Source of the DNA: Paenibacillus sp. FSL H8-0079
GTDB taxonomy: Bacteria > Bacillota > Bacilli > Paenibacillales > Paenibacillaceae
Reading direction: 5' to 3'
Assembly (NCBI RefSeq): GCF_037991315.1
Contig: NZ_CP150300.1
Location: 6,634,001-6,698,000 of the forward strand
Length of the DNA: 64,000 bases
A program made the translations under genes and the position numbers. Below the pieces are notes generated by a model, which saw only the letters and a program-made list of their open reading frames with translations, did no database searches and had not been told where the DNA came from. Below are positions 5,497 to 15,155 of this stretch, piece after piece; position 1 is the first letter of the stretch; each line of letters starts with the position of its first letter.

Positions 5497-5564
5497 AACT
5501 ATTTCTCCTTCTAACTTTTTAGTCTAATGAGTATAGCATGATGAAAAGGAATGCTTGTTATATG

Positions 5565-5591
5565 AAAAAAGCATGGCTAGTCATAGCTTTT
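5565..5591 (-). terminator. terminator-like hairpin in the leader of the MetE-like gene
   Basis: On the minus strand AAAAGC-TATG, a five-base loop, CCAT-GCTTTT and further T residues form a factor-independent terminator about 70 bases before the MetE-like start codon. It either stops read-through from upstream or acts as an attenuator. A second minus-oriented inverted repeat (5621-5628 with 5643-5650) lies just upstream of it. Confidence 0.5.
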
Positions 5592-5668
5592 AACAATAGC
5601 TAAAAGACGTTAATATGCAAAAATCCACAACCTCATATGGTAGTGGATTTAGGGTGGAGCAAAGTGCA

Positions 5669-5773
5669 GTGGTCATGATGATAATCTCATTATGTTTAAT
5701 ATTACTACTATTTATGATAGGGTTCACCGTATCGGTTGAAGAGCGAAAGTTGAAATTAAAATTAAAACATTAG
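5669..5773 (+). CDS. possible small membrane peptide
   Basis: A 32-34 residue frame starting at GTG 5669 or ATG 5675, with GGTGGAG nine bases before the GTG. It encodes a single hydrophobic helix (SLCLILLLFMIGFTVSV) followed by a lysine-rich tail, a layout typical of small membrane peptides. There is no homology evidence, so the call rests on the ribosome binding site and composition only. Confidence 0.35.
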   Translation: MVMMIISLCLILLLFMIGFTVSVEERKLKLKLKH

Positions 5774-5915
5774 GTATCTTTTAATTTTATATGAAAAAAT
5801 ACACTTTTAGTCAATTTGGTACTTTTTTAATTTAAATAGTTAAAAAATCCTAGGGAGGATTTTCTATATTTATGTCGAAAATAATCCATATTACCTAAAT
5901 ATGGAGGTCTGCCAG
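5774..5915 (+). promoter_or_regulatory. leader of the PRTase-like gene with hairpin and short upstream frame
   Basis: This very AT-rich leader contains a perfect 8-bp stem with a four-base loop (5844-5863). The loop and right arm hold AGGGAGGA, a good ribosome binding site. Fourteen bases downstream a nine-codon frame, ATG 5872 to TAA 5898 (MSKIIHIT), ends just before the GGAGG (5903-5907) of the main gene. A translation-linked control is possible but unproven. No clear -35/-10 pair was chosen because many AT-rich candidates exist. Confidence 0.35.
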
Positions 5916-6950
5916 ATGTTAAGCGTTGAAACTGAGTTCGAAGAACTAATTAATGACATTGTAAGTACAACTAAAGACTATAAGAATGGAAAAGTTATGA
6001 ATGCAAAACATGTAACAAAATGGATTGAGCAATTCCATCCAGATATTCGTTTGACAATTTTACAAGAAATGAGCCACATTCTGAAGAAACACTACGTTTC
6101 TAAGAAAGCTACAGCTGATTTCATGGAAAAACTCCTAAATAAACATGAAATTGTTGGTGACTTTATTACCAACCACTCTACTGTACATTTTTTAGATATC
6201 CAAAGAAATGGACAAAGTCAGAAAGACTTATTGGAACTACTTGCTGAAGTAATGGAAGATAAATTTGATATCAAACTTTCAGTTTGTGGCCTACAGCCAA
6301 AAACATACGTATATTTTGATGATTGTATTTTTTCTGGAAATACACTGCTTCGTGATATGGAAATATGGGTTAATCAAAATCAAATCAAAAATGTCACTGT
6401 ACATTTTGTTTCTCTAGCAATGTATAATGGTAGTCGTAAGTATCTAGACGATAAACTTAAAGAATTATTTAAAGACAAAAATGTGAAATTTGAAATTTGG
6501 AGAATACATGAGTTTGGTAATAAGGCTTGGGAGAAAGTAAACTATCAGTGCTTATGGCCTACCGAACCCACAGTTAAAGATGAGCATGTACAAAATTTTC
6601 AAACATATATTGAGGAGCTGCGCAAAGAAAATGGACGTCAAAATAAATTTCCTCTTTTTCGTCCAGCAGACCAGTTTACGGCAGAAGCCCTATTTACAAC
6701 TAAAGAAGCACGTGAAGTGGTAGAACAAGCTTTCCTTAAGCATGGTTCACACATTTTCTCATTCAGAAATAACGATAGTTTCAAACCTATGGGATACTCA
6801 TATTTTTTAAGCACAGGATTTGGCTCCTTATTTGTAACCTATCGTAACGTTGCAAATAATAGTCCTCTTGTACTATGGTGGGGAGATCCTACGCAGGGTT
6901 ATCCTCTTAACCAATGGTATCCTCTTTTCCCTAGGAGTGTTAATCAGTAA
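5916..6950 (+). CDS. phosphoribosyltransferase-like protein (PRTase-CE type, conflict-associated)
   Basis: A 344-residue protein, start at ATG 5916 because GGAGG sits eight bases upstream. The central YVYFDDCIFSGNTLLRDM (about residues 135-152) matches the PRPP-binding loop of type I phosphoribosyltransferases, with hydrophobic strand, two acidic residues, then SGNT instead of the usual TG-T. Upstream helices and the strand VHFLDIQRNG fit a Rossmann-like core; the C-terminal third (GYSYFLSTGFGSLFVTYRN, then LWWGDPTQGYP) is unassigned. This resembles the PRTase-CE group noted in comparative genomics as a conflict-system component. It is 21 bases upstream of a NADAR gene on the same strand, implying joint action on NAD/ADP-ribose or PRPP-derived nucleotides. 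Base composition is much more AT-rich than the core genes. Confidence 0.65.
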   Translation: MLSVETEFEELINDIVSTTKDYKNGKVMNAKHVTKWIEQFHPDIRLTILQEMSHILKKHYVSKKATADFMEKLLNKHEIVGDFITNHSTVHFLDIQRNGQSQKDLLELLAEVMEDKFDIKLSVCGLQPKTYVYFDDCIFSGNTLLRDMEIWVNQNQIKNVTVHFVSLAMYNGSRKYLDDKLKELFKDKNVKFEIWRIHEFGNKAWEKVNYQCLWPTEPTVKDEHVQNFQTYIEELRKENGRQNKFPLFRPADQFTAEALFTTKEAREVVEQAFLKHGSHIFSFRNNDSFKPMGYSYFLSTGFGSLFVTYRNVANNSPLVLWWGDPTQGYPLNQWYPLFPRSVNQ

Positions 6951-6971
6951 GGAATTGGAGGACTGATTCTC

Positions 6972-7628
6972 TTGTCCACGCATGAAATAAAAATATACTC
7001 TAGAGAGACTTCAATTGTTTTCAAAAAAACTAAGGAACCATTTGGCACTATGTCCAACATGGCTCCTGGTTTTCCACTACTAATCAATGGAGTTAAGATT
7101 TTAACATCTGAGGCATTATATCAAGCTTGCCGATTCCCCCACAAACCCGACGTTCAAAGGGAAATCATAAAACAAATTAGCCCTATGACTGCAAAAATGA
7201 AGAGCAAACCACATCGGAATGAGTCAAGGCAAGATTGGTTTGAAGCAAGAATTTCTATAATGCGATGGTGTTTGAGATTGAAGTTGTACCAAAATTGGTT
7301 TAAATTTTCAGAGGAATTAAAAAATACAAAAGGACTACCCATAGTAGAGGAGTCGCATAAAGATTCTTTTTGGGGAGCAATCCCTGATGAAGATAATAAT
7401 AATTTATTTGGTACGAATGCTTTAGGCAGATTACTCATGGAATTAAGAGAAGAAGCAATACATGCAGATTACGAAATTGCATTGGTTAATCCGCCTAATA
7501 TAGATAATTTCCTTTTGTATGGAAAACCAATAGGAACAATAAAATGTATCTTGAACAAAAATATAATGACGCATGAATATAAAAAGCCTAAGTTTGAGGT
7601 TGAGCAAACATTTTTATTTGATGATTGA
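6972..7628 (+). CDS. NADAR domain protein (YbiA-like, ADP-ribose-related hydrolase)
   Basis: A 218-residue protein beginning at TTG with TTGGAGGA ten bases upstream. Family landmarks of NADAR (YbiA/DUF1768) are present in order: FGTMSNM near residue 25, TSEALYQACRF (conserved glutamate, about 48), RQDWFEARISIMRWCLRLKLYQN (about 80-100), IVEESHKDSFWGA (about 125) and NALGRLLMELRE (about 150). Studied NADAR proteins cleave N-glycosidic or ADP-ribosyl bonds; some reverse guanine ADP-ribosylation as antitoxins of DarT toxins, others act on riboflavin intermediates. Here no DarT is visible; the partner is the PRTase-like gene. Roughly 45-60 residues at the C-terminus extend past the core. A hairpin follows at 7694. 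Confidence 0.8.
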   Translation: MSTHEIKIYSRETSIVFKKTKEPFGTMSNMAPGFPLLINGVKILTSEALYQACRFPHKPDVQREIIKQISPMTAKMKSKPHRNESRQDWFEARISIMRWCLRLKLYQNWFKFSEELKNTKGLPIVEESHKDSFWGAIPDEDNNNLFGTNALGRLLMELREEAIHADYEIALVNPPNIDNFLLYGKPIGTIKCILNKNIMTHEYKKPKFEVEQTFLFDD

Positions 7629-7693
7629 ATACCAGTTAATTGTTATTGCTAAAATAGACTTACTACATTGTTTTTAATTCCTCTAAACAAAAA

Positions 7694-7735
7694 CAAATTA
7701 ACTATTCCCTTTAACTTTAGGGAATAGTTAATTTG
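7694..7735 (-). terminator. terminator between convergent NADAR and XRE-ImmA genes
   Basis: A perfect 17-bp stem (7694-7710 with 7719-7735) with an eight-base loop. The minus-strand flank is rich in T, so it serves the XRE-ImmA operon; it may also stop the opposing NADAR transcript. Confidence 0.85.
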
Positions 7736-7802
7736 TCCGAACATTATATTGATAAATCATACGACTATGCCTTGGCCAAAAACGCTCTTTTTTTATTTCT
7801 TA

Positions 7803-8987
7803 TCAGTTGGCAGATTCTCTAGTTTTCGAGTCCAACTTATCTTTTATACTCACAATATTCCCAGAATAAGATACTTCTGTTTTTAAATATCCTTCTTCTA
7901 ATCCAAGTAGTTCCTCTACTTCTTCACGAAGTAAGCTCAATCCATATTGTTGCGATAGTTTCTGCATAAATGTATCCCCGGATATATAATCATTCTCAAT
8001 TAATAGCTCTACAGCTTGCTTCATAGAAACTGGATCTCTTAAGTCTTTGACATCATCTAAGGGTTCTTTAGTTCTCCAACCTTTGTTACTTATAGAACGT
8101 TGCATATACTGATAAGTACCTTCATTTATAGCACCAAGTTTATAAGCACGCATAACCATTGCACCGATAGAGACAGACCACTTTTTCTTAAGCAACTTAT
8201 AATACATAAGATCATTTGGATGAATGGACACATCTCTTAGAAAACTTTCCTTAGGTAGAAGAAACGCTGCTGCAAAATCATTTGCTTCTTGCTCTATCTG
8301 TTTAAACTCTTCCTTACTCAAATCATCAATATTTAAATACGGGTCATGAAGGACTTTATGACCTAATTCATGAGCTACATCGAATTGGCGTCTGTAAAAA
8401 GACTTCTTATCATTCCCCAAAACAATTGAATAATATTGTTTCCCATTTACAACATGTTGTGAACCGAAAGCATCAATTGACTTTTTACCTAACATTAATG
8501 ATGAAATCACAAACCCTTTGGTCTCAAGCAAGTAAATAATATCCTTTATTGGCTTATCTTCAAGAGACCACGCTTCTCTGACCTTTTCAGCAATTTCTTC
8601 AACTCTTTCAGTATCCTGATCTGAGAAATCAGGTACATCGAGTTCAGGAAAATCTACGTATTCTTCAAGCAAAGCACGGATAATTGTTAGATATTTGACA
8701 CGATCATAATGCATTTCTCTTTCTTTTTTTCCTGTACTCAGTAACGATCGAAAATATGTGCTGCCTGTTTTAACTTCAACAGAGGTCTCATAGAAATACT
8801 CTTTAGGAAACTTCAATATCCTAGTCAGGGTCAGCAAGGCATCTAGATTAGGAACTGCCTTGTCATTTTCATATTTTGAAATCATCTGCTTACTAACACC
8901 TAATTCGGCCGCTAAATCTGTAATTGTTAAGCCACGGTAAATTCTACCCTCCCTTAACCTTGAACCATTAAACTGTCTTTGAATCAT
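7803..8987 (-). CDS. XRE-type HTH regulator fused to ImmA/IrrE metallopeptidase
   Basis: A 394-residue protein with two parts. Residues about 10-65 form a helix-turn-helix of the Xre/lambda-repressor type (GLTITDLAAELGVSKQMISKYEND). The middle (about 170-260) is an ImmA/IrrE peptidase domain with the zinc motif HELGHKVLH and a downstream glutamate in EQEANDFAAAFLLP. Such fusions bind DNA and cleave a repressor or partner after a stress signal, often in mobile elements and phage-defence or toxin-antitoxin loci. GGAGG precedes the ATG. It lies 29 bases after its upstream partner gene on the same strand. Confidence 0.85.
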   Translation of the reverse strand: MIQRQFNGSRLREGRIYRGLTITDLAAELGVSKQMISKYENDKAVPNLDALLTLTRILKFPKEYFYETSVEVKTGSTYFRSLLSTGKKEREMHYDRVKYLTIIRALLEEYVDFPELDVPDFSDQDTERVEEIAEKVREAWSLEDKPIKDIIYLLETKGFVISSLMLGKKSIDAFGSQHVVNGKQYYSIVLGNDKKSFYRRQFDVAHELGHKVLHDPYLNIDDLSKEEFKQIEQEANDFAAAFLLPKESFLRDVSIHPNDLMYYKLLKKKWSVSIGAMVMRAYKLGAINEGTYQYMQRSISNKGWRTKEPLDDVKDLRDPVSMKQAVELLIENDYISGDTFMQKLSQQYGLSLLREEVEELLGLEEGYLKTEVSYSGNIVSIKDKLDSKTRESAN

Positions 8988-9016
8988 TGAAAAATTCCTC
9001 CTTATATTGAGGAATG

Positions 9017-9778
9017 TTAGCTGTTATTTTCCTCTTTTTTATTCGCTTTATCCAGTTTTTTTGTCGGAATTTGTTGATCGAACTGTTCCTTGAGTTTCTT
9101 TACCGACTGTTTGACTTTTGGTATAACCTCCATGTCACCCTTATTCTCCTCTGGAGTAATAGTCAAATCACTATAATCATCCATAGTCACATACATAGAC
9201 CAATTCACTTTATCAATTAGCTCAAAATAACGATTGAATAAACGTGCTTCTACTCCAACCATTTTTTTCTCAACTTCTTGAGCTACTACAAATATTACTT
9301 GATTCACTAAAGGATATTTCTCGCCAAGTATCTTCTGTACTTCCATAAGTCTCTTAGTTTCGTAATCCTCAGTTAAAGTAGTACCAAACAAAGATAACTG
9401 TTTCTCCTCAAATTCCAAAGGTCCGCTGTTTATAGAAACAAAAGCATGAAAATAATGAATCTTATCCTTACCAAAGTTTTTTATCACTTTTTCCAAATTT
9501 TTTTCTTTTGAAAAGATGTATAGACTTCCTGTATCAGTATCTAAAACACAAATGAAAGTCCAGATGCCTCTTCTTTTTGTAACAACAGCCATATTATTAC
9601 TTAGAGCCGCTTGTTTTATACGATTAAACCGTATATCCCATGCTCCCCCATTCTTAAAATTCCCAGTTTCCATGTCGTACTCTTGCTTTATTTCACTGAT
9701 AACACCTTCTGTACTTTCAGTAAAAGATTTAACTAATAATTCAGCTTGCTCACCTTGCAATCCTACTTGATTTAGCAT
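9017..9778 (-). CDS. unknown protein paired with XRE-ImmA (possibly DUF5986-like)
   Basis: A 253-residue protein, start at ATG 9778 with GGAG five bases and GGAGG ten bases upstream. The N-terminal 130 residues look like an alpha/beta fold (WDIRFNRIKQAALSNN, then GIWTFICVLDTDTGSLYIFSKEKN); the C-terminal part is charged with a lysine-rich tail ending KKEENNS. It recalls a Bacillus family (DUF5986) seen beside XRE-ImmA genes, but this is from memory. It is first in the two-gene unit with the ImmA-type regulator, so it could be the toxin, sensor or substrate controlled by it. AT-rich, like its neighbours. Confidence 0.55.
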   Translation of the reverse strand: MLNQVGLQGEQAELLVKSFTESTEGVISEIKQEYDMETGNFKNGGAWDIRFNRIKQAALSNNMAVVTKRRGIWTFICVLDTDTGSLYIFSKEKNLEKVIKNFGKDKIHYFHAFVSINSGPLEFEEKQLSLFGTTLTEDYETKRLMEVQKILGEKYPLVNQVIFVVAQEVEKKMVGVEARLFNRYFELIDKVNWSMYVTMDDYSDLTITPEENKGDMEVIPKVKQSVKKLKEQFDQQIPTKKLDKANKKEENNS

Positions 9779-10012
9779 TATCACTCCACCTCCAAAGCAC
9801 ATACAGATTTATTTAATCTTAATGATACTACAAAATTTAATAAAAAGTAAACCATAAAGTACATATTATATAAAAATACATTATCCATACTTGTTATTCG
9901 AACATACATACAACGAATATATAGCTTCAGCAATCACTGTAAACGAATTAACGGTTTAACAATAATAGATGATGAAATACAAGTCCACAAAAAAGAGCGA
10001 CCCATACATCAA

Positions 10013-10309
10013 GTGCGGGTCGCCCTAACATTTGAGGAAGGAGAAACAGTAAACCCTTTTTACGACGGTACAGATTTATTCGTAACCATAGGTGAGGACA
10101 ACATCCAATTTACGTTGGAAAAAGACTGGGCTGATTGGCCTCCAGCTATTGAAGGAAGTCCTAATGAGTTCGCGCTGGGCTGGGTTTCGGAACTGGCTGT
10201 ATCATTCTATGTTTCAGCAGAAGCTCTTTCAGTAGCCGAAGCTAACAACCATCCACGCTATAGTAATAACCCACAAAGTAACAGCCATCAGGAGGAATCA
10301 GAAAAATGA
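10013..10309 (+). CDS. unknown 98-residue protein, duplicated at 13.6 kb
   Basis: A GTG-initiated frame of 98 residues, probably one beta-rich domain (FYDGTDLFVTIGEDNIQF). The GTG sits inside an inverted repeat (GCGACCC, 9997-10003, with GGGTCGC, 10017-10023) and has no convincing ribosome binding site, while the frame stays open about 160 bases upstream without an ATG. It may therefore be the 3' part of a longer, truncated gene. A second copy with the same reading frame lies at 13577-13945. Its stop overlaps the next start (ATGA). Confidence 0.5.
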   Translation: MRVALTFEEGETVNPFYDGTDLFVTIGEDNIQFTLEKDWADWPPAIEGSPNEFALGWVSELAVSFYVSAEALSVAEANNHPRYSNNPQSNSHQEESEK

Positions 10310-10584
10310 TCGACCTGACATCTGATATGCAGTTCACTACCTTAATCCAAACCAATGCACTTCCTACAGACTGTATTACTTTCATCCACGATTACATGCA
10401 TCAACTTCGCAATGCACATGAAGAAGAAGCCTTCCCTTCACCCGGTCAATGGTACTTCATCCTGGAAACTACCGATCGCTCACTCCCATCCAACTCGACG
10501 GAGCTGCCTTCTCCTGTTCGGCGGGTACGTATTACCCCGAATACATCGAACAATACACTTGTAACAATCAATACACTTTCATAG
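10306..10584 (+). CDS. unknown 92-residue protein, coupled to the preceding gene
   Basis: The ATG overlaps the previous stop codon (ATGA) and is preceded by AGGAGGA, so translation is likely coupled. The product is a soluble 92-residue protein with a helical N-terminal half (IHDYMHQLRNAHEEE) and a short strand region (PVRRVRITPN). It is not recognised. No copy of it follows the degenerate duplicate at 13.6 kb. Confidence 0.5.
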   Translation: MIDLTSDMQFTTLIQTNALPTDCITFIHDYMHQLRNAHEEEAFPSPGQWYFILETTDRSLPSNSTELPSPVRRVRITPNTSNNTLVTINTLS

Positions 10585-11028
10585 GTGAATTATCCCTTTT
10601 TATATAAATAAATTGCGCTTGCAAACATGCATCATCTTTACCAAACAAGCCACAGAGCCACGTTTCTTATTTTGTACGTACCCGCACTTTTCTCATATAC
10701 TAGGCTAAAGATTTATAAACTCTTTGCCTATTGAGAACGGTATCGGCAAACAGAAGAAGTTAGCGCCATTGCCATCAATTCACCAAAACCACAACGTCTA
10801 GGATTGAATCTAGCGTACTAATAAATGACTTTAATGAGTATGTAATAAGATATGCCGACACTTTTTATTCCTATCATATCGAATTATGTAAATAAAAAGG
10901 ATTATTTGTATTGTTTTGTAGAATGTATATACAATATACCACAAAGTATTGTATAAAATAAGAAGCGCTTAAATAACTGGGTTATAATCCAAAATTTAAT
11001 AAAATAAGTTATTTGGAGGAACTCTTCT
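10585..11028 (+). other. intergenic region upstream of the secreted-peptide gene
   Basis: No gene is supported here. The second half becomes very AT-rich and contains several TATACAAT-like hexamers near 10925-10945, a possible promoter region for the gene at 11029. The GGAGGA ribosome binding site of that gene lies at about 11013-11019. Confidence 0.4.
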
Positions 11029-11514
11029 GTGAAATTTAAGAAAATCATTGCATCTACTTTAGCTGCGGGAATTTTAATGGGGGCTTTATCTGTTCCAGTA
11101 ACAGTTATGGCTAGCCCAGCTCCTTTGAAAACCGTTTCTGTATCAAGTTCTACACTAAATGGAAGTAGTGTTTCAACAATACCTTACAACAAAGTTTCAA
11201 ACACAGGTATTGTAGTTCCAACTGCACAGAATAATGGAGATGTAAGTACTCAAAATCTCATTTCTAACGTTATAAAAAAGGCTATAACTGGTGCACTCCG
11301 CTACGGTGGGGACTATTTAGGTAAGCTTCTTTCAAAGCTGAGCCCTTCAGCTGGCAACTATGTAATAAAATATTCCGGAAAAATCGCTGACTTCTTGGAT
11401 TCTATTACAAATTGGCAAGAAAATATTATTGCATCCGGACTTGTAGGTATCGGAGTACCACCAGCAGAAGCATATGAAATTGCAAAATACATCGTTTGGC
11501 TAGCAGGACTCTAA
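11029..11514 (+). CDS. secreted peptide precursor, possibly antimicrobial
   Basis: GTG start with TTGGAGGA ten bases upstream; 161 residues. Residues 1-28 are a clear Sec signal peptide (KKII, hydrophobic core, cleavage after VMA-S). A Ser/Thr-rich spacer follows to about residue 75. The C-terminal 85 residues are amphipathic to hydrophobic (IKKAITGALRYGGDYLGKLL, IIASGLVGIGVPPAEAYEIA) and end in VWLAGL. The layout resembles exported bacteriocins or SDP-type killing factors whose mature part inserts into membranes. The next gene encodes a multi-pass membrane protein, a plausible immunity protein. No cysteine bridge or GG-leader is seen. Confidence 0.55.
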   Translation: MKFKKIIASTLAAGILMGALSVPVTVMASPAPLKTVSVSSSTLNGSSVSTIPYNKVSNTGIVVPTAQNNGDVSTQNLISNVIKKAITGALRYGGDYLGKLLSKLSPSAGNYVIKYSGKIADFLDSITNWQENIIASGLVGIGVPPAEAYEIAKYIVWLAGL

Positions 11515-11606
11515 AATTACTTAAAATTGAATCAAAATATACTTCATTAGAGGTATATTTTGATTCAAAAAAATACCGCAACTAAGAAATGGAATAAGGA
11601 GAAAAC

Positions 11607-12155
11607 ATGAACTCAACACATTGGCTTGTCATACTTGTAATATTTATCATTATGTTACTCGCTCTAAATCTAATAATTAATTACACTAGCCGTAAAGATA
11701 AGGAAAATCCACCTTCTTTGAAGGTAAAGATATGGCTAGTTCCAGTGCTGGCTTCTTTAATCATCTTGCCTGTAGCCATTTTCACTACACTGTATAGTAT
11801 GTTTTTCTATAATTTCGGAAAAGCTAGTGGCTTTATATATTTTAATCAATTTGGAGATATCATTGTTTTTTCCGTACTTATTATTATTGGCTTTCTTATT
11901 TTTGAAACTCTAATTCATCCAATTATCGTTACTGTCTTAAATTACGGATTGAAGAGACAGGTATCTGTATATACTCGTAACTCTATTACACTTATTATGG
12001 ACAGCTTAATTATTTACATTTTAGCTTCTAGCTTTAATGGTATTTATATCTTAGATTACTGGTCTGCTCTCTCAATATCAGTTTTCTATCATATTATAGA
12101 TTGGGGATTAACGCTGATTTTCAAATTTGGTAAAAAGTTAAACAGAAAGAAATAA
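11607..12155 (+). CDS. multi-pass membrane protein, candidate immunity protein
   Basis: A 182-residue, very hydrophobic protein with five likely transmembrane segments (about residues 7-27, 45-67, 88-110, 127-147, 150-170) and a lysine-rich C-terminus. AAGGAG precedes the ATG. It lies 92 bases after the secreted-peptide gene; the hairpin-like AT repeat between them (11537-11568) could reduce read-through and make the membrane protein less or separately expressed. The immunity role is inferred only from this context. Confidence 0.5.
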   Translation: MNSTHWLVILVIFIIMLLALNLIINYTSRKDKENPPSLKVKIWLVPVLASLIILPVAIFTTLYSMFFYNFGKASGFIYFNQFGDIIVFSVLIIIGFLIFETLIHPIIVTVLNYGLKRQVSVYTRNSITLIMDSLIIYILASSFNGIYILDYWSALSISVFYHIIDWGLTLIFKFGKKLNRKK

Positions 12156-12450
12156 TTTAAGTATTTAATAAATTCAAAACATTCTTAGAATAATCTGATG
12201 ATGGTCCTCTTTTAAAAGCAGGAGAATACATTTCAGTTTATTGCTAAAACCAAAATTTAGCCATACTGATTATTAACCTAAATTTCATACAATTCTCATT
12301 CTGAGTTTGGACGTGCCTGATATAGCTTTGCGGCTCTCTTTATCGCATCAAACTTTTCTCACATTGTATAAATCTATAAGCATCGAATCATGCACTTTCC
12401 CCCTATAACCTCCCCTATCAGAAAATCAAATCACTATATCAGGTATTCAG

Positions 12451-12790
12451 TTATCTCCTATCGCATAGCCGAATGCGAAAAATAACTATATTATCTTTTC
12501 TGACCACACCTGCAGTCATGCCCTCGTATCCAGCTGTAAAAACTTCTCTTACCCCCACAGTGATCTTTTCATTTAACATGCTCTCGTCTGCCGAATTTAC
12601 CTTTATATAATCGATAATGATCTCAGAGTATAGTTGGCTTCCGTTGCTAATTCCAGTTAAATCATACTATTACTTGCAGTTCACGAAGATATGTGATACC
12701 TGAGCCGAGCATTGAACCCAATACCAATATGCATGGTATCATTCACACGCACATATTAGATCTATTTGAAAACATCCATATTATAATTAG
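12451..12790 (-). pseudogene. remnant of an unrecognised gene
   Basis: A coherent coding fragment reads on the minus strand from about 12664 to a TAA at 12451 (includes SQLYSEIIIDYIKVNSADES and VREVFTAGYEGM). Just upstream the same strand continues in another frame (GSMLGSGITYLRELQVIV) and meets stops, so at least one frameshift is present, and no start is seen. It reads as the C-terminal part of an exported or membrane-anchored protein, now broken. Confidence 0.45.
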
Positions 12791-12854
12791 AATATAGTGT
12801 AAATTTGTAATAAACAAAGTTTCATTTTTATATCATACCTTTGAATAATAATGA

Positions 12855-12897
12855 TGGAGGTATAAATAGATGAAAAAATCGCACAGAAAACTCTAAT
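12855..12897 (+). pseudogene. orphan gene start (RBS, ATG and eight codons)
   Basis: GGAGG (12855-12859) followed ten bases later by an ATG gives MKKSHRKL and then a TAA. It looks like the beginning of a secreted-protein gene whose remainder was lost at the junction with the opposing truncated gene ending at 12902. Confidence 0.3.
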
Positions 12898-12901
12898 CAC
12901 T

Positions 12902-13366
12902 CTAAGCAGTAGTCTGAAGGGATTCAGCGAGACTTTTGGTCTCTGCGTTATTAAATGTAATCGCAACTCCCCACCAATAAGGATTACTAAACACAAACGG
13001 TGTAACAATTTGAATACCACTACTATTAACTTGCCCATTGATGGCAGCATTTAAGTTTTTTACTCCAATGGAGAATTGATTGTAAATTTCTTCATCTATA
13101 ACTTCTTTTGCAGCTGGATCAAGGTGATATAAGTTATCCGAACCTTTGTTTATGTAAGGCGCCATTGCTTCCGCAGAATCAAAAATCTTCTTAGAAAACT
13201 CTTCTTCGCCTAATACCATTGTCTTCTTAGTAACATTGAAATCACTATTTGGAAGTTCAATCGAAGGTGAAGGAGTAGCTGCCGAAGCAGATACGACTGG
13301 CGCCAAAGATGAAATAGCCAAAATAATACAAAGAGCAGCGGATATTATTCTTACCTTTTTATTCAA
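12902..13366 (-). CDS. secreted protein with WWG motif, apparently C-terminally truncated
   Basis: TTG start with GGAGG eight bases upstream; 154 residues. The first 29 residues are a signal peptide ending VSASA. The mature part has the pattern AEAMAPYINKGSDNLYHLDP, then VIDEEIYNQFSIGVKNLN and NPYWWGVAITFNNAETKSLA, seen in secreted Bacillus/Paenibacillus proteins of unknown, possibly bacteriocin-like, function. Those relatives, as I recall them, continue for another 50-70 residues with a hydrophobic segment; here the frame stops at LQTTA and runs into an unrelated orphan gene start. The gene is probably broken. Confidence 0.5.
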   Translation of the reverse strand: MNKKVRIISAALCIILAISSLAPVVSASAATPSPSIELPNSDFNVTKKTMVLGEEEFSKKIFDSAEAMAPYINKGSDNLYHLDPAAKEVIDEEIYNQFSIGVKNLNAAINGQVNSSGIQIVTPFVFSNPYWWGVAITFNNAETKSLAESLQTTA

Positions 13367-13576
13367 ATTTATTCCTCCTAAAGTATATTTATGTTACATT
13401 TTGTGTTCTAAATCAAAATACACAGAATATAAACCACATTTTGTTAAAAATCTATTTTATGTAATTTATAACATGTAAATGTAATAATAATAGAGTCACC
13501 ATTACACTCAATTCAGAAGACATCCATTCCTATAGTTCGGGAATAGGATGATACTCGGGAGTTACTGCACTACTCA

Positions 13577-13945
13577 AATTAACGCTCTAAGCCAAAAGGG
13601 AAAGCGTTTATCCCATATTAGGACGGCACAGAATTTGTTGTAACAAGGGGTGAAGACAACATCCAATTTACGCTGGAAAAAGATTGGGTAGATGGACCTC
13701 CAACTATCGAAGGAAGTCCCATTGAGTTCGCGCTGGGTTGGGTATCAGAGCTAGCTGAACCATTCTATGTTTCACCCGAAGCACTTGCAGCAGCCGAGGC
13801 TAACAACCATCCAAGTTATAGTAATAACCAACCGTCCGCAGGAGTAGTACATCCGAGTAATCTTCTCGCCATCCTTCCACCGATTGACTGTGCGGCTGGC
13901 GGTCTTAATGTATTAACTCATTCCTCATACTTCGAAAGCTTATAG
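13577..13945 (+). pseudogene. degenerate copy of the gene at 10013
   Basis: The frame DGTEFVVTRGEDNIQFTLEK onward matches the 98-residue protein of 10013-10309 nearly residue for residue over about 75 codons with no indel. A TAG at 13619-13621 replaces the TAC of the other copy (PY-stop-DGT versus FYDGT) and no start codon is found. The copy continues past the homologous part to TAG 13943-13945 with a different C-terminus. It is a nonsense-broken paralogue, showing duplication within the island. Confidence 0.75.
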
Positions 13946-14554
13946 CCATTTCTTTAACAGTACTTAAGCGATCTTCAATATTTGCATCTAAACCTTTAAA
14001 ATTAATACTCAGTTCTCAAATATGAAAGAAGCATCAGCTTTATTCGATGACTATTACGAGGGTATTGATAATGTAAGGTGGGATTTGCGAACTATGAAGT
14101 GCGACATGAAATTTACGCACTCACTCAGATGGTGATTTTTTTACTTTGTGGAAAGAAACATGGAAATGGAATCTATAGTAAGAGTCAAGCGGTTAATGAA
14201 TTTTTGCATAGCTTGTACACTCAAGTACTCACTAATTTCATCTACTGCAATACCCATAATATCGACCCCCAATGTTTACTTTGAAGACAGAAAAGACTCC
14301 CCCTTTGCATGGAAAAGCTCCTAATTATGTGCCGAGCACTATAAAAAACTTGTAATATTAGGACAGCCCGGTACAACCAGACGCCACATCACTAACCATT
14401 GTTGCCCATACAGTTTCACACGTAACAATCAGAATATGAAACAATTTAAATCTTGTATTTATCACGGGCACTTCCCCCTTAATTTGGCTTTTGCAATTTA
14501 CTTTATCAATGAGGTAGCGCATAGCAACAAGCAAGACAACAGAAACAATGGTTA
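13946..14554. other. zone of gene remnants
   Basis: No intact gene is supported. Short coding-like fragments are visible: minus strand around 13900-14010 (INFKGLDANIEDRLSTVKEM, stop at about 13914), plus strand 14021-14134 (MKEASALFDDYYEGIDNV), and minus strand 14140-14275 (GIAVDEISEYLSVQAMQKFI). None is long enough or framed well enough to call. They suggest several decayed island genes. Confidence 0.4.
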
Positions 14555-14625
14555 TCGGTGGTAGGGATTCGAACCCTAACAGTACTGCCACTCTCCTAAT
14601 ATTACGAGTATTTTTCATAATATCG
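14554..14625 (-). other. tRNA 3'-end-like sequence (T-arm and acceptor strand)
   Basis: On the minus strand TAGGG-TTCGAAT-CCCTA forms a perfect T-arm with the invariant TTC-A loop, followed by CCACCGATAACC in the place of a tRNA 3' strand. No matching 5' acceptor strand, D-arm or anticodon arm is found upstream, so it is not a complete tRNA. It may be a decayed tRNA or a duplicated tRNA 3' end left by an integrated element. Confidence 0.45.
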
Positions 14626-14632
14626 GCAATAA

Positions 14633-14661
14633 AGTATATCGTCAAGATATATCCTTGTCAA
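14633..14661 (-). promoter_or_regulatory. near-consensus sigma-A promoter
   Basis: On the minus strand TTGACA (14656-14661), a 17-base spacer and TATACT (14633-14638). It lies 15 bases past the rlmH stop and points into the tRNA-like sequence at 14554-14625, with no protein gene following. Confidence 0.6.
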
Positions 14662-14675
14662 TCCGAAATTTCGCC

Positions 14676-15155
14676 CTATTTGTGGTACGGTTCCCCCCGA
14701 TTTATCTTCACCGCGCGATAAATCTGCTCCACCAGGACCAGCCGCATAAGCTGATGCGGCAGGGTCATGCGCCCGAAGCTCAAGCGCTGCTTCGCGCGGC
14801 GCAATACCTCATCGGAGAGCCCATGGCTTCCTCCGATGACAAACACGACATGGCTCGTCCCATACGTGCCGAGCTTGTCGATCTCCATTGCCAGCTCTTC
14901 GGAACTCCAGAGTTGGCCATCCAAAGCGAGCGCGACGACATGCGCCTCGCTCTTCACATGCGCGAGGATGCGTTCGCCCTCGCGCTCTTTCACCGCCCGA
15001 ACCTCAGCTTCGCTCAGGGTATCGGGCGCCTTTTCGTCTGCGACCTCGATCATCTGAAACTTGATGTACGGGGCGAGCCGCTTGGCATATTCCTGAATGC
15101 CCAGCGTGAGATACTTTTCCTTCAATTTGCCTACGCCAATAATCTGAATAAACAT
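14676..15155 (-). CDS. rlmH: 23S rRNA (pseudouridine1915-N3)-methyltransferase RlmH
   Basis: A 159-residue SPOUT methyltransferase that methylates pseudouridine 1915 of 23S rRNA on the assembled 70S ribosome. Family marks: N-terminal [30 protein letters not shown], the knotted SAM-binding [13 protein letters not shown] (about residue 105), and the C-terminal [15 protein letters not shown] ending RGEPYHK. Length matches the family (159 in Bacillus). GGAGG lies 11 bases before the ATG. Position next to the htrA/wal cluster is conserved in Bacillales. GC-rich compared with the island to its left. Confidence 0.97.

Follow-up and report, generated by a model that had tools for sequence, protein, structure and literature searches.

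A DS32 gene pair of Paenibacillus with a candidate clamp-binding NADAR tail and relatives embedded in restriction-modification systems

The stretch of DNA analyzed here (the window, 64,000 nucleotides of Paenibacillus sp. FSL H8-0079, contig NZ_CP150300.1) carries two adjacent genes, one for a phosphoribosyltransferase-like (PRTase) protein and one for a NADAR protein. By its match to curated family models, the pair is a member of the catalogued DS32 anti-phage family, and phage protection is predicted for the window copy. The pair itself is therefore no discovery; the interest lies in a clamp-type motif in the tail of the NADAR protein and in the embedding of related pairs in type I restriction and Hma systems. 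Neither this motif nor the fusion of NADARs to subunits of restriction-modification systems was part of the original prediction for this locus. Together, they suggest that the system acts on host DNA where the replication clamp sits. We propose, with a probability of roughly 0.4, that the PRTase is a toxic effector, whose eraser or gate would be the NADAR protein, held on host DNA by the clamp.

The gene pair and its family

The two genes lie on the same strand, PRTase first, separated by 21 bases, as the original prediction had described them:

5903..5907, plus strand: Shine-Dalgarno GGAGG of the PRTase gene, read from the sequence
5916..6950, plus strand: PRTase-CE gene, DS32 subunit 1, 344 amino acids, ATG start at 5916
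6318..6344, plus strand: loop motif DDCIFSGNT for phosphoribosyl pyrophosphate (PRPP), residues 135-143; D135, D136 and G141 invariant in 32 aligned sequences
6957..6962, plus strand: Shine-Dalgarno GGAGGA of the NADAR gene, read from the sequence
6972..7628, plus strand: NADAR gene, DS32 subunit 2, 218 amino acids, TTG start
7605..7619, plus strand: QTFLF, candidate sliding-clamp-binding motif, residues 212-216, matching QxxLF near the NADAR C-terminus

The program-made list of open reading frames (ORFs) begins the PRTase frame at 5901, 15 bases 5' of the ATG. Both genes are AT-rich (G+C 0.341 each, and 0.348 for the accessory island around them, versus 0.456 for the rest of the window), in agreement with the earlier description. 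The first protein matches Pfam PRTase-CE at 176.6 bits (cut-off 27) and the second matches Pfam NADAR at 81.3 bits (cut-off 35.1). NCBIfam holds two equivalog models for exactly this combination, NF053875 (DS32_1, "phosphoribosyltransferase-like anti-phage protein") and NF053876 (DS32_2, "NADAR family anti-phage protein"). Since the two proteins exceed the cut-offs of these models (333.2 bits versus 250, and 272.8 versus 240, respectively), the pair is not new. The DS32 of NCBIfam is very probably the DS-32 of the DefensePredictor screen, in which 42 of 94 cloned Escherichia coli transcription units were protective (PMC13092281). The names DS32_1 and DS32_2 agree with the DS-n naming of DefensePredictor systems, and the equation rests on this naming, because the string DS-32 is absent from the main text of that paper, where a PRTase is named in a figure legend and NADAR domains in one passage.

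The AlphaFold model of the first protein supports a type I phosphoribosyltransferase fold, with PRTases of nucleotide salvage and biosynthesis as its top structural matches; a search of solved structures by sequence gave no match at an expect value (E) below 1. The PRPP-loop motif is intact (VYFDDCIFSGNT) and fits the pattern of type I enzymes, hhhhDDxxx[ST]Gxx. Model and motif thus identify the protein as a type I phosphoribosyltransferase, and its predicted fold points to PRPP, not to nicotinamide adenine dinucleotide (NAD). The original prediction had anticipated the fold correctly, but its suggestion of an "NAD-linked" defense finds no direct support, because no DarT-like gene was recognized among the neighbors scanned. 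The second protein was also rightly named: its model supports a YbiA-type NADAR fold, so that sequence family and fold both place it in the NADAR superfamily. Conservation marks E126 as the candidate catalytic glutamate of this protein. On TIGR02464, the equivalog model for the N-glycosidase of riboflavin intermediates, it scores 69.4 bits, below the cut-off of 73.7, which some other DS32 NADARs pass (L005, L081, L120).

PRTase and NADAR are nearly inseparable. Among 120 loci picked by PRTase patterns (the window's own and two relatives, the best 80 of 173 from a genome scan, 34 viral contigs and three plasmid records, some of them near-copies, e.g., L022, L085 and L086), the NADAR gene lies directly downstream of the PRTase gene on the same strand in 117, and the pair is indeed conserved in other genomes, as first supposed. 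The three exceptions are a contig that ends just past the PRTase gene (L037), a partial NADAR at a contig end (L067), and a locus (L003) with no full NADAR, a sub-threshold match (19.5 bits, under the family cut-off) with an internal stop. The family is sparsely distributed: the DS32_1 cut-off is exceeded in three of the 394 genomes of the window's family, the window's own included, and one genome of the window's species has no protein above it. A phage-borne origin was considered and rejected, as tblastn with the PRTase (E 1e-5) matched none of 50,697 phage records and three of 72,556 plasmid records. The viral contigs hold 34 PRTase relatives, and some of these contigs are perhaps prophages.

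The NADAR tail and the fused forms

The window NADAR carries a tail of 59 residues that ends FEVEQTFLFDD. In bacteria, clamp-binding motifs follow the consensus QL[S/D]LF, or more broadly QxxLF, with positions 1, 4 and 5 critical (PMC12309361), and unrelated transposases bind the clamp through C-terminal motifs of the QxxLF kind (PMC4549789). PolC of the window's genome ends NQLSLF, the E. coli DS32 NADAR ends GQSLSLF, and the Q, L and F are kept in the four closest relatives of the window protein while the intervening residues differ (alignment A2). The tail is of low confidence in the AlphaFold model, with a predicted local distance difference test score below 50 for residues 204-211 and a mean of 51 in the last block. 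From its sequence, it looks like a docking peptide for the sliding clamp (DnaN).

We quantified this pattern in the 117 NADARs that lie beside a PRTase (linked NADARs), 61 unfused and 56 fused. A clamp-type motif (any of four patterns) is present in 91 of the 117 tails, against a mean of 11.8 and a maximum of 22 over 300 rounds of shuffling, a count that overstates independence because linked NADARs are related; among 18 representatives with less than 70% domain identity, 11 have it (shuffle mean 1.1, maximum 5). The penta- or delta-type motif falls within the last 10 residues in 38 of the 61 unfused linked NADARs versus one of 1286 background ORFs, and the strict QxxLF in 17 of 61 versus none of 1286; the background consists of the other reading frames of at least 150 amino acids in the loci, taken as longest non-overlapping frames and not as annotated genes. 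The delta-type pattern (20 of 117 linked tails versus 0.5 in shuffles) was defined post hoc after viewing the tails, and many of its matching rows are near-copies. Hexapeptides of the form Q..[LM].[FL] are not enriched (2 of 117 linked tails, shuffle mean 6.7).

Control NADARs have the motif in three of 94 cases (L131, L218, L219), all three DS32-like, and their median tail length is 8 residues versus 48 in the unfused linked NADARs. Two of these three, L218 and L219, are DS32-like NADARs on viral contigs, with identical tails ending GQIDIFGG and no PRTase match within the fetched 8.5 kb; because the tails are identical, they count as one case. Among 120 database matches listed for NADAR, the anchor used was present in 110, of which 46 carry a motif. 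A second NADAR in the window's genome has no clamp-type tail.

In the fused linked NADARs, the motif sits in the linker of 40 of 56. Split by hand according to fusion partner, it is found in 37 of 39 fusions to a type I specificity subunit (HsdS), three of three to an ImmA-type domain, none of five to HmaB, none of eight cyanobacterial forms and not in the single other form. As read from the printed ends, six of the eight cyanobacterial forms have QL[SP]L[LI] near the very end.

The HsdS fusions (39 loci, including L017, L055 and L068) match PADLOC Specificity_I at 313.9 bits in L055 and 284.1 bits in L017; an HsdS domain is absent from the Pfam result for L055. Of the 39 loci, 38 have HsdM upstream, 37 have HsdR downstream, and 15 have a GmrSD-type gene that separates HsdM from the PRTase gene, as counted by homology to L055 and L017 with near-copies included. 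The usual operon is HsdM-(GmrSD)-PRTase-NADAR~HsdS-HsdR, with the PRTase-NADAR module inside a type I restriction system. A similar embedding is seen in an Hma-type system (L081 3519-14562), where the gene order is HmaA, PRTase, NADAR~HmaB, HmaC. These fusions tie the module to restriction-modification, and it is the NADAR that they direct to DNA and not the PRTase. In the literature searched, we found no report of a clamp motif or an HsdS fusion in NADAR proteins, an absence that is weakly tested.

C-terminal NADAR extensions also occur in Paenibacillus relatives (L005, L013, L002, L241). The extension of L005 contains an ImmA-type (M78-like) domain by Pfam, and like extensions are found in the window's genus in G010 and in Paenibacillus polysaccharolyticus (L013, identical tail start). 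This domain is of the same type as in RmrA, which in the window is the separate next gene.

A mobile island with a second defense system

The pair is carried on a mobile defense island, the features of which are as follows:

5697..14675, no strand: accessory island, about 9 kb, AT-rich, limits approximate, between a methionine-synthase-like gene and rlmH
5698..5726, no strand: left island border, with a degenerate repeat of the rlmH 3' end, candidate attachment-site duplication
7803..8987, minus strand: RmrA, XRE and ImmA-type (M78) antitoxin of RosmerTA, convergent to the pair (PADLOC RmrA 588.3 bits; Pfam HTH_3 and Peptidase_M78)
9017..9802, minus strand: RmrT (DUF5986), partner of RmrA (PADLOC RmrT 262.3 bits; Pfam DUF5986)
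14676..15155, minus strand: ORF that we take from its protein to be rlmH, island border, with the same DNA at the border in four relatives

The XRE-ImmA regulator noted beside the pair from the beginning is thus RmrA, and the suspected defense setting is borne out by the RosmerTA system in the same island; RosmerTA is a described toxin-antitoxin family in phage defense (PMC10440598). In a congener (G025), the site is nearly empty, with the equivalents of window positions 5696 and 14676 about 50 bases apart, and other cargo fills it in G684, G677 and G011. The left-border copy shares 93% identity with the rlmH-side junction of G025 across 29 bases. It is also the window's best second match to 14676-14700, at 17 of 25 bases (best in 20 shuffles, 14-17), a match weak by itself that is supported by its position, by the G025 junction and by second copies of the rlmH 3' end in G684 (L261 2452) and G677 (L262). 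A general repeat listing of the window gave no repeats at the island borders. The 3' end of rlmH is the integration site of staphylococcal cassette chromosome (SCC) elements in staphylococci, and the candidate border repeats fit integration at this point in the SCC style. No large serine recombinase (PF07508) was found in the window's genome. Elsewhere in the island, we observed a direct repeat of 237 bases with 81% identity (10038-10274 and 13596-13832) and, at 11029-12155, a 161-amino-acid protein that begins like a signal peptide and, after it, a membrane-like protein of 182 amino acids, neither with a significant Pfam match; these two are possibly a secreted peptide and its partner.

In G684, which is of the same species, the rlmH site holds a type III-A retron (L261 2910-6712) composed of a reverse transcriptase (RT_III-A, 409.5 bits), a PRTase-CE protein (PRTase_III-A, 174.6 bits) and a third protein of 293 amino acids. 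Because this retron occupies the site of the window pair, two different PRTase-CE systems share one hotspot in one species. The two PRTases are not detectably alike in pairwise comparison (BLAST E 1.6, hhalign probability 2%) and are linked by the shared Pfam family PRTase-CE only. A hairpin near 5635-5716 of L261 possibly belongs to the retron noncoding RNA; the two matches that Rfam gave for L261, both below threshold, are to miRNA on the two strands of this hairpin.

Proposed mechanism and comparison with known systems

No mechanism for DS32 was found in the papers searched. Published NADARs clear DNA of guanine adducts, some of them as antitoxins (PMC11125620), whereas PRTase proteins are probable effectors in type III-A retrons and beside DprA, where no NADAR is present (PMC12548924, PMC9122126), their mode of action being called unknown as of 2022 (PMC9122126). 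Because the fusions aim the NADAR at DNA, NADARs remove adducts and PRTases are probable effectors elsewhere, we favor a PRTase effector with a NADAR eraser. The PRTase, once let loose, would use PRPP to place a ribose phosphate on a base of a nucleic acid, or would consume PRPP in some other way; the NADAR, as eraser or gate of the PRTase, would cleave the N-glycosidic adduct. Docked on the host sliding clamp by its QxxLF tail, the NADAR would keep freshly replicated host DNA free of adducts. No such cleaning would reach phage DNA that is copied independently of the host clamp or, in the case of the HsdS-fused forms, that lacks the host methyl marks; this DNA would be damaged, or the cell would be shut down. 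If true, this would explain how a DNA-modifying toxin could spare its own host. A more specific version is speculative and, taken as a whole, unlikely: DS32 would be a writer/eraser immunity in which the PRTase marks DNA (or RNA) with the ribose phosphate and the clamp- or HsdS-tethered NADAR erases self marks only. In that event, the replication machine or the methyl pattern of the DNA would distinguish self from non-self, HsdS being the methylation-reading subunit, and such an immunity would, to our knowledge, be the first described.

Several points weigh against the effector-eraser proposal. The invariant DD does not amount to proof of catalysis, and a function shared with retron PRTases would be drawn at the level of the family, because pairwise likeness is undetectable. 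The clamp motif is not universal among linked NADARs, since the last 10 residues contain no penta/delta type in 23 of the 61 unfused and no strict form in 44, and the five HmaB-fused proteins are all without the motif, and the lack of the motif in controls is partly lack of room, because most have no tail. The substrate may not be DNA, because NADARs also cleave small metabolites, and the roles could be reversed, with the NADAR as effector.

We consider it rather unlikely that the system works on small molecules, with a PRTase that, during infection, depletes PRPP or produces a toxic nucleotide or signal, and a NADAR that degrades this product. The salvage and biosynthesis enzymes among the structural matches speak for it, as do the NADARs described as acting on riboflavin intermediates (PMC9503650). 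However, the repeated HsdS and HmaB fusions and the clamp-type motif are hard to square with a purely soluble substrate, and the window NADAR falls short of the TIGR02464 cut-off, which some other DS32 NADARs pass. Unlikely, too, is a system with the NADAR as its weapon, an enzyme that the clamp or HsdS would guide to strip bases or base modifications from phage DNA, with the PRTase recycling or sensing the freed base. NADARs are N-glycosidases, the fusions direct them and not the PRTase to DNA, and the clamp motif would put them at forks; the adduct removal and antitoxin roles of published NADARs, and the probable effector role of PRTase-CE proteins that have no NADAR, argue against this assignment. 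That the QxxLF tail docks the NADAR on its PRTase partner is highly doubtful: the motif does track PRTase linkage, but it fits the critical consensus positions and the end of the host PolC, and L218/L219 keep QIDIFGG with no PRTase match in the fetched 8.5 kb.

Among known systems, DS32 is the closest, the window pair having both subunits above the curated cut-offs in the same order and adjacency. The E. coli DS32 pair (L232), which at 310.9 and 259.8 bits likewise passes both cut-offs, belongs to a lambdoid prophage, where it is flanked by replication gene P and the nin genes, whereas the window pair lies in an island of a Gram-positive chromosome; the two pairs are 27% (PRTase) and 43% (NADAR) identical. 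The same prophage carries a DUF3037 and HipA-kinase pair (L232 2727-4300), an architecture that has been likened to DS-6 (PMC12548924). In DarT1-NADAR and YarT-YbiA, a NADAR is likewise encoded with a putative transferase and removes a ribosyl adduct (PMC11125620), whereas here no DarT-type ADP-ribosyltransferase was recognized among the scanned neighbors, the NADAR being flanked by PRTase-CE and RmrA. The enzyme YbiA, or that of TIGR02464, has the NADAR fold in common with the window protein, which differs in its below-threshold score, its tail and its PRTase partner. Type III-A retrons and the DprA-PRTase system share with the window pair a PRTase protein that is there the probable effector (PMC12548924, PMC9122126); for retron effectors, membership of Pfam PRTase-CE was checked in one retron (L261). 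Unlike those systems, the window pair has no recognized DprA or reverse transcriptase (within 5500-14675, the sole proteins of 200 amino acids or more are the pair, RmrA and RmrT, and none is a reverse transcriptase), and has a NADAR instead.
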